Shown: positions 48,119 through 52,315, counted from the stretch's first letter. The stretch: DNA of 64,000 bases from Exiguobacterium marinum DSM 16307 (GCF_000620845.1 NZ_KK211189.1:759662-823661), one strand, 5' to 3'. Numbers and translations: made by a program. Notes: generated by a model not told the origin, from the sequence alone.

Positions 48119-49066
48119 ATGGATATCCGGACACTAGCAGAACGAGAGCTATCCGAACTTCCATTGTTCGATATGACGGAATGGTTGGCTCGTAAAGGGG
48201 AATACGACCCTTCTTTCCGTCTTGTCGCCAGTGAGTTTGAGGTCATCACGACGCTCCTCGACCATGGCTATTATGAAGAAGCGAGCGAACGAATCGTGCC
48301 GCTCCTCGGGATGAAAGTGCCTGCTGCTTTCCATCGACTAGGTCTTGCGCTAGAAGTGAAGGCGAACGGGAAAAAAGCGGCCAAGCGCCGCTTTCGTTCG
48401 TTCTCGTCGGCTGTCATCCAGCATTCGGATTTAGCCGAATGGCGACAAGTGTTCAAGTTTGATAAGAAATGGCTGGGGCTTCCACTCGTCGTCGGTCTCG
48501 CGGCGGGCGTGCTCGCATTTTGGCCAAATGCTGAACCACCAGTCGTTACATCGGACGAATCGGACCAAGTCGTCATGGAGACGGTGACCGAGGAGGAGGC
48601 GCTCGCGGAACGCCTTGAGGAGTTAGAAGCGGAAGTCGCGCGACTCGAAGAAGAGAATGAGAAACTTCAAGATTCGGACGATCAGAAACCGACTGAGTCA
48701 ACAGAAGAAGCACCGGCCGTTTCGACGGATATTGTCCCGCTGACCGAAGTTGAAGCGCTCGTTCAAGACAAGCAGTACGAAAAAGCTGATCGACTATTGG
48801 GTGGTAAAGCGAAAGCTGGTCAAGAACAAGCAGTCGGATTTTATCGACTTCTCGTCGACAATAAGTTAGGACAAGCAGAAATTACTGATTATGCAAATTA
48901 TGTCGATTCTTATCCGGAATCCGGTTACAAAGCGGATGTTTTATGGATGAAAGGGATTGCCGAGAAAAAGGCAAATGATCCCGCTTATCGCGATACGTTG
49001 ACGACCGTTTCAGAAATGGAAGGGACATATTGGGCACCGATTGCGAAGTCCGTGCTCGAAGAGTAA
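48119..49066 (+). CDS. Single-pass membrane protein with coiled coil, unknown function
   Basis: A 315-residue protein that I do not recognise. Residues 1-115 are a soluble, probably helical, cytoplasmic part; 118-136 is a single hydrophobic helix (LPLVVGLAAGVLAFW); 155-188 is a heptad-like acidic coiled coil (ALAERLEELEAEVARLEEEN); a disordered Glu/Ser/Thr linker follows and the last 110 residues look like short helical (TPR-like) repeats, outside the cell if the N-terminus is inside. It starts four bases after the glyA stop codon and so shares its transcript. A role in envelope organisation is only a guess. Confidence 0.7.
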   Translation: MDIRTLAERELSELPLFDMTEWLARKGEYDPSFRLVASEFEVITTLLDHGYYEEASERIVPLLGMKVPAAFHRLGLALEVKANGKKAAKRRFRSFSSAVIQHSDLAEWRQVFKFDKKWLGLPLVVGLAAGVLAFWPNAEPPVVTSDESDQVVMETVTEEEALAERLEELEAEVARLEEENEKLQDSDDQKPTESTEEAPAVSTDIVPLTEVEALVQDKQYEKADRLLGGKAKAGQEQAVGFYRLLVDNKLGQAEITDYANYVDSYPESGYKADVLWMKGIAEKKANDPAYRDTLTTVSEMEGTYWAPIAKSVLEE

Positions 49067-49090
49067 GGTGCTGCGTGAGCGGCGCCTTTT
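49065..49090 (+). terminator. Intrinsic terminator after the glyA operon
   Basis: AAGGTGCTGC and GCGGCGCCTT form a 10-bp stem (two G-T pairs) with GTGA loop, followed by TTTT. It touches the operator of the next operon. Confidence 0.75.
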
Positions 49091-49144
49091 CTCATAGAAT
49101 TCTAATGAAGGCCACCACGATTTCTCGTTTTCTTGTCGTATGAT
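49087..49144 (+). promoter_or_regulatory. Operator and promoter of the two-component operon
   Basis: An 11+11 bp tandem direct repeat (TTCTCATAGAA then TTCTAATGAAG, 49089-49110) lies within a 27-bp block at 49087-49113 that recurs at 51411-51437 (22 of 27 identical). The -10 TATGAT is at 49139-49144, 52 bp from the block start. Tandem 11-bp half-sites are the usual target of OmpR/PhoB-type regulators such as the one encoded at 49481. Confidence 0.7.
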
Positions 49145-49165
49145 TTGAGTAGGAGGGATGCGTGC

Positions 49166-49414
49166 ATGAAACGTGTAATGAAAACTATTGGAACAACGCT
49201 TTTCGCAATCGGACTTATAGGAATCGGACTTGCCGGATTCTTATTCTTCACTTCCCCCGGCCAATCTAGCTTGACTCAACTATCGCTGGCGGCGATGGAA
49301 GTCGAACAGCAGATCGATCAAGTCGATACGACGTGGGATGAATGGGAAGATGAGTTAGAAAGACGGGTCGAGCAAGCGATTCCAGAAGGAGTTCGTCTGT
49401 TTTTTGCTGATTGA
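49166..49414 (+). CDS. Small membrane-anchored protein preceding the two-component genes
   Basis: An 82-residue protein with a basic start (MKRVMK), one long hydrophobic helix (about 8-29, rich in Gly/Ile/Leu/Phe) and an acidic 50-residue tail (QVDTTWDEWEDELERRVEQ near 52-70). Topology suggests the tail is outside the cell. ATG 49166 follows AGGAGGG. No known family is recognised. It is the first gene behind the regulated promoter and is separated from the response regulator by a terminator hairpin, so it should be made in excess; it may act as an accessory or feedback component of the kinase. Confidence 0.65.
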   Translation: MKRVMKTIGTTLFAIGLIGIGLAGFLFFTSPGQSSLTQLSLAAMEVEQQIDQVDTTWDEWEDELERRVEQAIPEGVRLFFAD

Positions 49415-49435
49415 TTTCGGGAAATGAATAATAAT

Positions 49436-49464
49436 ACGTCGAGCGAGTTGCTCGGCGTTTTTTT
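49436..49464 (+). terminator. Partial terminator between small membrane protein and response regulator
   Basis: ACGTCGAGC and GCTCGGCGT form a 9-bp stem with one G-T pair, GAGTT loop and seven Ts. No promoter fits between it and the regulator start codon 17 bases later, so some read-through is required for the two-component genes. Confidence 0.75.
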
Positions 49465-49480
49465 CAAAGGAGTGAGCGGG

Positions 49481-50158
49481 ATGCAGACGATTCTCGTCGT
49501 AGAAGATGATTTGAAGATTGCACGATTGTTAGAGCTGGAGTTGAAGCATGCGGGATATGCCGTCGTCGTGGCCACGGACGGTCGTGGTGGTTTGGAGAGG
49601 GCACTTGCCGATGACATCGACCTCGTCTTACTCGATATTATGTTGCCTCAGATGAGTGGACTTGAGGTGGTTCGTCGTCTGAAAGAAGAGCGACCTCTGC
49701 TCCCGGTTCTGATGGTGACAGCTCGAGGAGATCGCTACGATAAAGTGAGCGGTCTCGACCTCGGCGCAGACGACTACATCACGAAACCGTTTGAAATAGA
49801 AGAAGTGCTTGCCCGGATTCGAGCTTTTTTGCGCATGCGTCAGCTCGTTCATCAAGACCATTCTGAACTAGTGTTAACATATGAGACATTAACGATCGAT
49901 GTGAATCGGCATGAAGTATATTGTGAAGGAAATAAAGTCGATTTGACACGTCGCGAATTTGATCTATTGGTTTTCTTTTTAGAACATCCTGAGCGTGTGC
50001 TGACACGTGATCAACTCGTCGAACAAGTATGGGGATTTGATTATTTCGGTGATACGAACGTCGTGGATGTATATGTCCGCTATGTTCGAAAAAAATTGAC
50101 AGGTTCCTGGATTCAAACGGTCCGCGGTGTCGGCTATATGTTGAAGCGTGGTGAGTGA
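49481..50158 (+). CDS. OmpR/PhoB-family response regulator
   Basis: A 225-residue regulator with a receiver domain (1-118; Asp9-Asp10, phosphoacceptor Asp52 in LVLLDIMLP, Thr80, Lys102) and a winged-helix DNA-binding domain (about 127-223; VDLTRREFDLLVFFLEHPE, VYVRYVRKKL and VRGVGYML). Start is ATG 49481 after CAAAGGAG. The kinase gene starts three bases after its stop. It most resembles the ArlR/CssR-like group of Gram-positive regulators; a firm orthologue cannot be named from sequence alone. It probably binds the repeat operators at 49087 and 51411. Confidence 0.9.
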   Translation: MQTILVVEDDLKIARLLELELKHAGYAVVVATDGRGGLERALADDIDLVLLDIMLPQMSGLEVVRRLKEERPLLPVLMVTARGDRYDKVSGLDLGADDYITKPFEIEEVLARIRAFLRMRQLVHQDHSELVLTYETLTIDVNRHEVYCEGNKVDLTRREFDLLVFFLEHPERVLTRDQLVEQVWGFDYFGDTNVVDVYVRYVRKKLTGSWIQTVRGVGYMLKRGE

Positions 50159-50161
50159 CCG

Positions 50162-51397
50162 ATGTTACGAACAAAAATCGCATGGGCGATGACAGGATTC
50201 ATGTTGATTCTCCTTTTCATCTCGTTTGGTGTGACATGGTTCGTTGCCCGTCAAGAGATTGTGGATTCGCGCTTTGACGTGTTACTGCAAGCACTGAATA
50301 TTTTAGAAGAAGATGTCCGGAATAGTGATGCCGTATTATCGCTCCATAAGGATAGTGTCGTATTGGAACGCCAAGAAAGCGGAGAGTGGGGAATCATCGG
50401 TGGAGAGGTACCGAATGGGACGACATTCCCCATCAATTATGGCGAGCCGGCACTTATTGATGACTGGTTTGTGGTCGCAACGACCGACGGCTTAGCGTTC
50501 GGCTTTCAAGATCGGGCCGTGAGCAACACGATTCAAGCACTCGCAACCATATTTCTTGTCATGTTTTTCCTTGCAGTCATATCGACATTCTTTGGAACGT
50601 GGTGGATTTTACGTCAAGGCTTGTCACCGTTACGACGATTGACAGACACGATGGAACGCATCACCAAATCCGGGAAGTTAGAGACGATCGAAGTGGATGA
50701 CAGAAAGGATGAAGTGACGACACTCTCGCACGGATTCAATCATATGATCGAGCGGGTCGAAGGAACGATGGAGCAACAACGCCGTTTCGTCGCCGATGTT
50801 TCACATGAACTTAAGACACCGTTGACCGTCATCGAAGGCTATTCGAAGTTATTACAACGATGGGGACAAGAAGATGAGGGTGTGCGCAACGAAGCGATTG
50901 ATCATATTTTGACGGAGTCGCGACAAATGCGAAATGACTTGATTGAACCCATGCTCGAATTGAATCGATTCACGGCACTCGAACAGGTCGACCGAGAAGA
51001 AATCGATTTAGCTGAACTCGGGGAATCGTTAACGGAACGTTTTTTACGGTCGCACGGCGTCCACCTCCCCATCGAAGCGACGGGCAGTTGGTTTGGTCAT
51101 CGTGAGTCGTTACAACGGATTCTTGTCATTTTGATTGATAATAGTTTGAAGTATGCAGAGGAGACGACTCTTCATTTGAAGAGTGATCGGATTGAAGTAC
51201 GTGATCGAGGACCAATCCTTTCAGATGAAATAAGAAATCGTCTGTTCGACCGATTTTATCGATTGGATGAAGCACGAGATCGAAGTGGAAGCGGTCTCGG
51301 TCTTGCGATTGCGAAAGAAGTGGCGGACTTGAATGAATGGACGATTGGAAGTATATCGAATGATCCCGATGGTAGTGTATTTTTCCTGACTCGATGA
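50162..51397 (+). CDS. Membrane sensor histidine kinase
   Basis: A 411-residue kinase with two membrane helices (about 7-28 and 123-150) that enclose an extracytoplasmic sensor loop of about 94 residues, a HAMP linker (about 151-205), the phosphoacceptor His215 in VSHELKTPLT and an HATPase domain with N-box VILIDNSLKYA and G-box SGSGLGLAIAK. It forms a pair with the regulator upstream. The sensed signal is unknown; the short loop and the regulated secreted protein suggest an envelope stimulus. Confidence 0.9.
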   Translation: MLRTKIAWAMTGFMLILLFISFGVTWFVARQEIVDSRFDVLLQALNILEEDVRNSDAVLSLHKDSVVLERQESGEWGIIGGEVPNGTTFPINYGEPALIDDWFVVATTDGLAFGFQDRAVSNTIQALATIFLVMFFLAVISTFFGTWWILRQGLSPLRRLTDTMERITKSGKLETIEVDDRKDEVTTLSHGFNHMIERVEGTMEQQRRFVADVSHELKTPLTVIEGYSKLLQRWGQEDEGVRNEAIDHILTESRQMRNDLIEPMLELNRFTALEQVDREEIDLAELGESLTERFLRSHGVHLPIEATGSWFGHRESLQRILVILIDNSLKYAEETTLHLKSDRIEVRDRGPILSDEIRNRLFDRFYRLDEARDRSGSGLGLAIAKEVADLNEWTIGSISNDPDGSVFFLTR

Positions 51398-51410
51398 TGA
51401 ATGTTCCTTA

Positions 51411-51468
51411 TTTTCTCATCAAATTTTAATGAAGCCTTAAATGCTCTCTCACGCACAAAGCTTATGAT
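51411..51468 (+). promoter_or_regulatory. Second copy of the operator/promoter, ahead of the acidic repeat protein
   Basis: A 27-bp block at 51411-51437 matches the block at 49087-49113 at 22 positions, again as two 11-bp half-sites (TTCTCATCAAA and TTTTAATGAAG). The -10 TATGAT is at 51463-51468, 52 bp from the block start, exactly the same spacing and -10 sequence as upstream of the two-component operon. Confidence 0.72.
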
Positions 51469-51507
51469 GAAAATAAGAAGAACGGAACACAACGAGGAGG
51501 AAATAAC

Positions 51508-52173
51508 ATGAAACGCATCGGCTGGATCATTGGAGCTTTACTTGGCGTCATGGCAATTGTAGGGATTGGATTTTATGTTAGTGGTAATCAGACGGACACG
51601 GTTATCGAGCCACAAGCAATCAACCAAACGAGCGGCAATCCATCAGCGGACAACTCAAGTGATTCCGCTACACCGGATGACTCGAGTAACGCATCAGATG
51701 ATTCATCATCACAAGTGGAGGATGGGGACGACTATGCACTGTACGGTACACTCGTGAAGTTGTCGAAAGAGGATGTCACCATTAGCTTCAATGGAAAAGA
51801 ATCCACATACCGTTTAGCAACCACACATGAAATCGACGATGACACGCCGCGAGTTGGGGACCGGGTCAAGCTCGAATTGAATCGAAATGATGAAGTGAAA
51901 GAAGTGGACCGTGAGAGTGGCGACGATGATGGGTACGTTTACGGCACACTCGTCAAACTCACGAGTCAAGAAGTTACGATTAATATCGATGGAACCGATA
52001 AAGCGTATCCACTAGCTGCACGTGCTGAAATTGATGACGACACACCGCGAGTCGGAGACTTCGTCAAACTTGAATTGAATCGAGAGGAAGCAGTCATTGA
52101 AGTAGATCGTGAATCAGAGGACGACCAGTATGAGCAAGATGATTCATCTGAAGATGAGCGAGAAAACGACTGA
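51508..52173 (+). CDS. Exported acidic protein with two beta-rich repeats
   Basis: A 221-residue protein with an N-terminal signal anchor (about 5-25), a Ser/Asp-rich linker (about 40-75) and two tandem 62-residue repeats (77-138 and 143-204) that share GTLVKL, EIDDDTPRVGD and VKLELNR. It ends in an acidic tail. The repeat resembles small DUF5666-like beta domains but I cannot name a family. Net charge is strongly negative, so cation binding is possible. ATG follows GAGGAGG. The promoter carries the same operator as the two-component operon just upstream, so it is the probable output gene of that system. Confidence 0.75.
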   Translation: MKRIGWIIGALLGVMAIVGIGFYVSGNQTDTVIEPQAINQTSGNPSADNSSDSATPDDSSNASDDSSSQVEDGDDYALYGTLVKLSKEDVTISFNGKESTYRLATTHEIDDDTPRVGDRVKLELNRNDEVKEVDRESGDDDGYVYGTLVKLTSQEVTINIDGTDKAYPLAARAEIDDDTPRVGDFVKLELNREEAVIEVDRESEDDQYEQDDSSEDEREND

Positions 52174-52184
52174 TGGAATGACTG

Positions 52185-52220
52185 AAAAGAACTAATCTCT
52201 TGATCGATTAGTTCTTTTTT
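52185..52220 (+). terminator. Intrinsic terminator of the acidic repeat protein gene
   Basis: AAAAGAACTAATC and GATTAGTTCTTTT form a perfect 13-bp stem followed by TTTTTT. Confidence 0.92.
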
Positions 52221-52315
52221 GGTTGCTAGATGTTAAGTCAGAAAAAGGATGGAATTGCTTTAGGGGCATCATCAGAAACGTAATAATTCTGAAATCATCA
52301 CAAAAATAGGTTATA

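Follow-up and report, generated by a model that had tools for sequence, protein, structure and literature searches.

Within a 64,000-nucleotide stretch of the Exiguobacterium marinum DSM 16307 genome (NZ_KK211189.1:759662-823661; hereafter the window), two neighboring transcription units, an operon encoding a small membrane protein, a response regulator, and a sensor kinase, and a gene encoding an exported or membrane-anchored acidic protein, are each preceded by a similar 27-bp block. The question raised by this locus is whether the two promoters answer to a single regulator and, if so, whether that regulator is the OmpR-type protein encoded between them. A first-pass annotation, made from the DNA alone, had proposed that they do and that the cassette forms a self-contained, autoregulated, envelope-sensing system lacking any prior description. 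Our analysis shows that the circuit is real and dedicated, and that its operator type is already known from targets of the ArlRS two-component system (TCS) and from a widespread family of PepSY-linked TCSs. We consider it probable that the cassette is a dedicated, autoregulated TCS circuit with two operators, in which the encoded regulator would activate both promoters.

Architecture of the Two Operators

All features described here lie on the + strand, and positions are counted from the first nucleotide of the window. Operator 1 (TTTTCTCATAGAATTCTAATGAAGGCC, 49087-49113) stands before the small-protein gene and operator 2 (TTTTCTCATCAAATTTTAATGAAGCCT, 51411-51437) before the acidic-protein gene. 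The two blocks are identical at exactly 22 of 27 positions, as first described, and the distance claimed for the -10 hexamer is likewise exact, with TATGAT beginning 52 bp from each block start (+52) at 49139-49144 in promoter 1 and 51463-51468 in promoter 2. Each block holds a strong distal pair of half-sites, located at 49089-49095 (TTCTCAT) and 49100-49106 (TTCTAAT) in operator 1 and at 51413-51419 and 51424-51430 in operator 2. The 11-bp phasing originally assigned to these half-sites was confirmed, but their number was not, as four rather than two were found. Scoring of TTCTMAT along two independent promoter sets, one of 12 distinct promoters from Exiguobacterium and one of 20, likewise distinct, from other genera, gave peaks at offsets 2, 13, 24, and 35; the peaks at offsets 24 and 35 played no part in choosing the promoters, and neither was reached in any of 5000 spacer shuffles. 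Each operator is an array of four 11-bp-phased half-sites, in which a weak proximal pair (~49111-49117 and ~49122-49128, spanning 49111-49128, in operator 1; ~51435-51441 and ~51446-51452, spanning 51435-51452, in operator 2) covers the -35 region.

Neither promoter has a TTGACA-like hexamer at its -35 position, where CACGAT (promoter 1) and AATGCT (promoter 2) occur at 17-bp spacing. In PhoB-type activation the regulator binds as tandem dimers, and the activator stands in for the -35 element. The placement of the proximal pair at the -35 position suits such an arrangement, although it is no proof of activation.

Uniqueness in the Genome and Conservation among Relatives

The 22/27 repeat by itself was rejected as evidence, because a stretch of 64 kb yields comparable counts by chance: 13 same-strand pairs of 27-mers in the window reach an identity of at least 22/27, and three first-order Markov copies of it contain 10, 2, and 4 such pairs. 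For the pattern TTYTCAT-N4-TTYTAATGAA, the scan of the whole genome for further copies that the first-pass annotation had suggested returned just two perfect matches in 2.81 Mb, both in the cassette; allowing one mismatch added none, and allowing two added six. When up to three mismatches were allowed, 85 matches were obtained vs. 39 for a reversed-pattern control, and when a -10 at +52 was also demanded, the genome held only the two window sites even with two mismatches allowed. A larger regulon was rejected, with no third site at zero or one mismatch and the two- and three-mismatch sites taken as noise. These results support the claim of a self-contained regulon.

Conservation of the blocks among relatives had been set beforehand as the test by which the proposal could be refuted, and we found the blocks kept wherever the corresponding gene is kept. 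The kinase is present in 18 of 19 genomes of the genus; operator 2 was found in all 18 of these (in diverged form in genome G003), and operator 1 in 17, being absent only from G003. Throughout the genus the -10 stays at +52 while the spacer and upstream bases vary. Taken together, the two-site uniqueness and the genus-wide conservation of +52 exceed chance and support a common regulator for both blocks. Autoregulation is supported as well. Across the family, the regulator and the repeat protein were detected together in 34 of 38 genomes, and both were undetected in the same other four.

Two rearrangements of the cassette were also observed. In G013 the whole cassette is cleanly deleted between its neighbors, the deletion beginning directly after the terminator of the upstream gene. 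At locus L154 (G014:C23:60500-67000), a transposon-like insertion with a TnpB-like reading frame splits the regulator and kinase genes, and both operators are intact.

The Operator in Other Bacilli

A blind operator scan of 399 Bacilli genomes identified nine places outside the family, six of them in Staphylococcus genomes. In five of the six the site is followed by an MgrA-type gene (at a distance of ~340 bp in those with a clear start), and the sixth locus is cut off. Relative to the start codon, the -10 of these sites spans about -311 to -306, which fits promoter P2 of mgrA, which is located 302 nt upstream and is reported to be wholly ArlRS-dependent (Staphylococcus; PMC4856396); the link between the operator and ArlRS comes from the scan together with that report. 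The operator of Staphylococcus ArlRS (mgrA P2, spx), TTTTCTCAT-N4-TTTTAATRA, and the ArlR recognition helix, TNVVDVYIR, are of the same type as those of the window. The arrangement differs, however, in that the mgrA site has its -10 at +30, i.e., 22 bp or two half-site periods closer than +52, and comprises one dimer site rather than two, and in that ArlR controls distant genes. The single dimer site of mgrA P2 takes the place that the proximal half-site pair occupies in the window.

When the operator was sought together with TATGAT at a free distance in named genomes, with matches found between +37 and +66, 26 of 79 lay at +52 and 0-5 at any other offset, among the matches listed. Again among the matches listed, 20 of those at +52 lie outside Exiguobacterium and have an open reading frame downstream; 15 of these precede a PepSY-domain gene, and the remainder precede YusW-type, VTC, DUF4342, or weakly DUF5666-like proteins; for example, the outputs of +52 promoters (L233, L215, L232, L207) include a DUF5666-like protein in Peribacillus (a weak match), a YusW-type protein in Planococcus, and a VTC-domain protein in Lederbergia. 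The operator with its +52 spacing thus recurs in numerous relatives, among them bacteria of soil and sea. The common Bacilli gene order is regulator, kinase, membrane PepSY protein, operator, and exported PepSY protein. Like these PepSY-linked systems, the window carries TTCTCAT-N4-TTYTAAT with a -10 at +52 before an output gene, and its exported-protein gene follows the kinase gene with an operator of its own. Exiguobacterium differs in having a small transmembrane protein and OB-like repeats instead of PepSY outputs, and in having two operators that flank the TCS genes. The claim that the system lacks prior description was not borne out for the operator type, which matches both the ArlRS-dependent mgrA P2 and the promoters of PepSY genes beside homologous TCSs in many Bacilli genera. 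A search of plasmids for annotated relatives yielded two Paenibacillus regulators only. Separately, in a Bacillaceae-like genome a gene for a UgtP/YkoN-like glycosyltransferase is preceded by the operator, the -10 being TACAAT, again at +52 (L161, G100:C162:15127-15148).

These comparisons bear on the direction of control. The same regulator could act on the same sites by repression, the proximal half-sites occluding polymerase and holding both promoters off until a signal arrives; the weak half-sites do overlap the -35 region, and many OmpR-family regulators are able to repress. We regard repression as unlikely, however, since the absence of a TTGACA-like -35 from both promoters is what is expected of activator-dependent promoters, since mgrA P2, whose site is the same and equivalently placed, is reported to require ArlRS for expression (PMC4856396), and since a fixed +52 phase in many genera better suits contact between an activator and polymerase.

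Identity of the Probable Regulator

The regulator gene (49481-50158) encodes an OmpR/PhoB-family response regulator of 225 amino acids with Response_reg and Trans_reg_C domains, and the kinase gene (50162-51397) encodes a membrane sensor histidine kinase of 411 amino acids with HAMP, HisKA, and HATPase_c domains; all of these Pfam matches, which together define a TCS of the OmpR/PhoB type, are above the curated cut-offs. In a tree of 47 regulators, including 20 PepSY-linked regulators, ArlR from two genomes (L196 and L197), and paralogues from the same genome, the Exiguobacterium regulators group together as one clade (96/88) and are nested, along with the 20 PepSY-linked regulators, in a larger clade (94/92). 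ArlR branches outside this larger clade, with the own-genome paralogues further out and several of them long-branched. Simple orthology with ArlRS was rejected on the basis of this topology, and the gene neighborhood also differs from the odhA neighborhood expected of an ArlR orthologue. We take YkoGH of Bacillus subtilis, with ykoI/ykoJ, to be the probable named member of the PepSY-linked clade, YkoG presumably falling within it and ykoJ presumably adjoining ykoGH. Two Staphylococcaceae genomes (L194, L195) carry a second, PepSY-linked ArlR-like TCS besides ArlRS.

The recognition helix TN[VI]VDVY[VI]R is common to the PepSY-linked clade and ArlR, and takes the form TNVVDVYVR in the window regulator. 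Among the 12 own-genome regulators compared, this helix is unique to the window regulator and absent from its 11 paralogues. This distribution of the helix provides the strongest evidence that the blocks are read by the encoded regulator and not by another. The OmpR-type protein lying between the blocks, the candidate named by the first-pass annotation, is favored by its helix, its clade, and the shared sites beside homologous regulators, and both blocks are probably bound by it.

Binding of the blocks by some other response regulator would be compatible with the 12 further regulator-like matches in the genome and with a relic in G024, a sister-genus genome and one of the four family genomes noted above, where the three module genes (fused gene, regulator, and kinase) are gone and a one-mismatch operator with its -10 at +52 remains (L328, G024:C5:51259-51314). 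This possibility seems to us very unlikely, given that none of the 11 compared paralogues has the shared recognition helix, that sites, regulator, and outputs travel together, and that the same site stands beside homologous regulators in other genera. An M50-type protease gene is still downstream of the G024 relic.

Output Proteins and Their Fusion in the Sister Genus

The first output is a single-transmembrane membrane protein of 82 amino acids (49166-49414). The second, of 221 amino acids (51508-52173), has an N-terminal transmembrane or signal segment, an Asp/Ser-rich linker, and two OB-like beta-barrel repeats. Neither has a significant Pfam match. A PepSY identity for the acidic protein was considered and not supported, as no Pfam PepSY match was found in either output and the repeats model as beta-barrels; the two PepSY matches of the genome sit elsewhere, outside the cassette. 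The structure model comprises two five-stranded barrels (residues ~73-138 and ~140-203) after a disordered acidic linker, with a predicted local distance difference test score (pLDDT) of ~80-88 over most of the repeats. The top rows of the Foldseek and VIA comparisons are OB folds, with Z of at most 7.5, a fold-level hint. In Exiguobacterium PepSY has been replaced by predicted tandem OB-fold repeats. A parallel is offered by visP/ygiW, whose exported product is of the OB-fold type and whose expression is governed by the neighboring, autoregulated QseBC (PMC5636140). As predicted for the window, an OB-fold-type output adjoins its TCS, but the window protein has two OB-like repeats and an acidic linker, comes from a Gram-positive organism, and shows no match to the YgiW/VisP bacterial OB-fold Pfam family even at E up to 1.

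The sister genus has the whole module under one operator (-10 TATTCT, at +52) as a single operon, whose first gene specifies a protein of ~295 amino acids. This protein is homologous at its N-terminus to the small protein of the window (E 3.7e-6 by profile comparison; z 6 to 15 for alignments vs. shuffles), and the rest of it is made up of the acidic repeats found in the second output. Because the small protein and the acidic repeats are fused in the sister genus, the two outputs of the window are halves of one component, and the original depiction of a small membrane protein and an acidic output as separate parts was not upheld. The derived state is either fission or fusion, and the common Bacilli layout looks more like the split state. 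A gene for a conserved M50/site-2-type membrane protease was also observed after the sister-genus operon, downstream of the kinase gene (L156-L160). While the single operator before the fused gene makes a promoter duplication plausible, the notion that the two blocks are alike merely through such a duplication, with no selected shared function, is hardly credible, given that core bases and spacing are conserved as the flanking spacer diverges and that the same array occurs at unrelated genes in other genera.

Proposed Mechanism

The activation circuit that we favor draws on computed conservation, spacing, half-site number, clade membership, recognition helix, two-site regulon, and fusion. The kinase would sense some envelope state and phosphorylate the regulator, dimers of which would then bind the four 11-bp half-sites head-to-tail and cooperatively upstream of both promoters. 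The strong distal dimer site may nucleate binding, and the weak proximal dimer site would replace the -35 and recruit RNA polymerase to the -10 at +52. Transcription from promoter 1 would supply the small membrane protein, and polymerases reading through an internal terminator-like hairpin would raise the amounts of regulator and kinase; promoter 2 would supply the exported OB-repeat protein. Both outputs most likely function where membrane meets wall, and probably feed back on the kinase as PepSY proteins beside TCSs can.

Such feedback is suggested by analogy with DbfQRS of Vibrio cholerae, in which the PepSY protein DbfQ binds the kinase and favors its phosphatase activity, and whose operon is suggested to be positively autoregulated (PMC12714742). 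DbfQRS resembles the window in that a small exported protein is encoded with the TCS, and serves as a model for output feedback on the kinase; it differs in that DbfQ has a PepSY domain and the host is Gram-negative, the comparison being one of genes. Also by analogy, the signal may resemble secretion stress: ykoJ of B. subtilis is among the genes most induced upon over-secretion of amylase or glutaminase (PMC11656851, PMC12542772), and a transcriptome study reporting its strong induction by secretion stress gave no regulon for it (PMC11656851).

Several observations weigh against this circuit. The blocks would fit a repressor too, and ArlR, the closest characterised relative, gave no shift of its own promoter fragment (PMC6455253). 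The model of the kinase sensor domain is of low confidence, too weak for its fold to be used. Furthermore, G003 keeps the TCS and has neither operator 1 nor the small gene; the co-loss of adjacent genes may be one deletion, so co-occurrence alone is weak; and the G024 operator, standing without its module, indicates that a site can outlast its regulator for a time.

Terminators and the Internal Hairpin

The small gene is separated from the regulator gene by a terminator-like hairpin and its T-run (49436-49464; fold of 49425-49470 at -15.8 kcal/mol, z -3.6). Those genus-mates that were examined and possess the small gene retain this element; G003 keeps a covarying stem and has lost the T-run. 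The hairpin is presumably an attenuator, such that promoter 1 would yield more small protein than regulator and kinase. The cassette is preceded by the intrinsic terminator of an upstream TPR-like gene (49064-49090; fold of 49060-49095 at -21.0 kcal/mol, z -5.4), the T-run of which doubles as the first four bases of operator 1, and the acidic-protein gene is followed by an intrinsic terminator (52185-52220; fold of 52180-52225 at -17.0 kcal/mol, z -4.9).

Implications for the Bacilli

New, as far as we have found, are the OB-like repeats in place of PepSY, the split output with two operators, and the family signature of four half-sites with a -10 at +52. More tentatively, this operator may mark pan-Bacilli envelope circuits in which the regulator-kinase core and promoter geometry are fixed and the output is exchangeable (PepSY mostly, YusW-type or DUF5666-like proteins in some, and OB repeats in Exiguobacterium), and the small transmembrane and OB-repeat proteins of Exiguobacterium may be a split kinase ligand that arose by fission (or whose halves were fused in the sister genus). 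The signature assigns direct targets to a widespread and barely studied family of Bacilli TCSs, and from it a regulator can be predicted for genes like ykoJ in B. subtilis. Additionally, the swap of outputs at a fixed promoter geometry, together with the fission or fusion between sister genera, provides a clean test of whether such outputs are kinase ligands or effectors.

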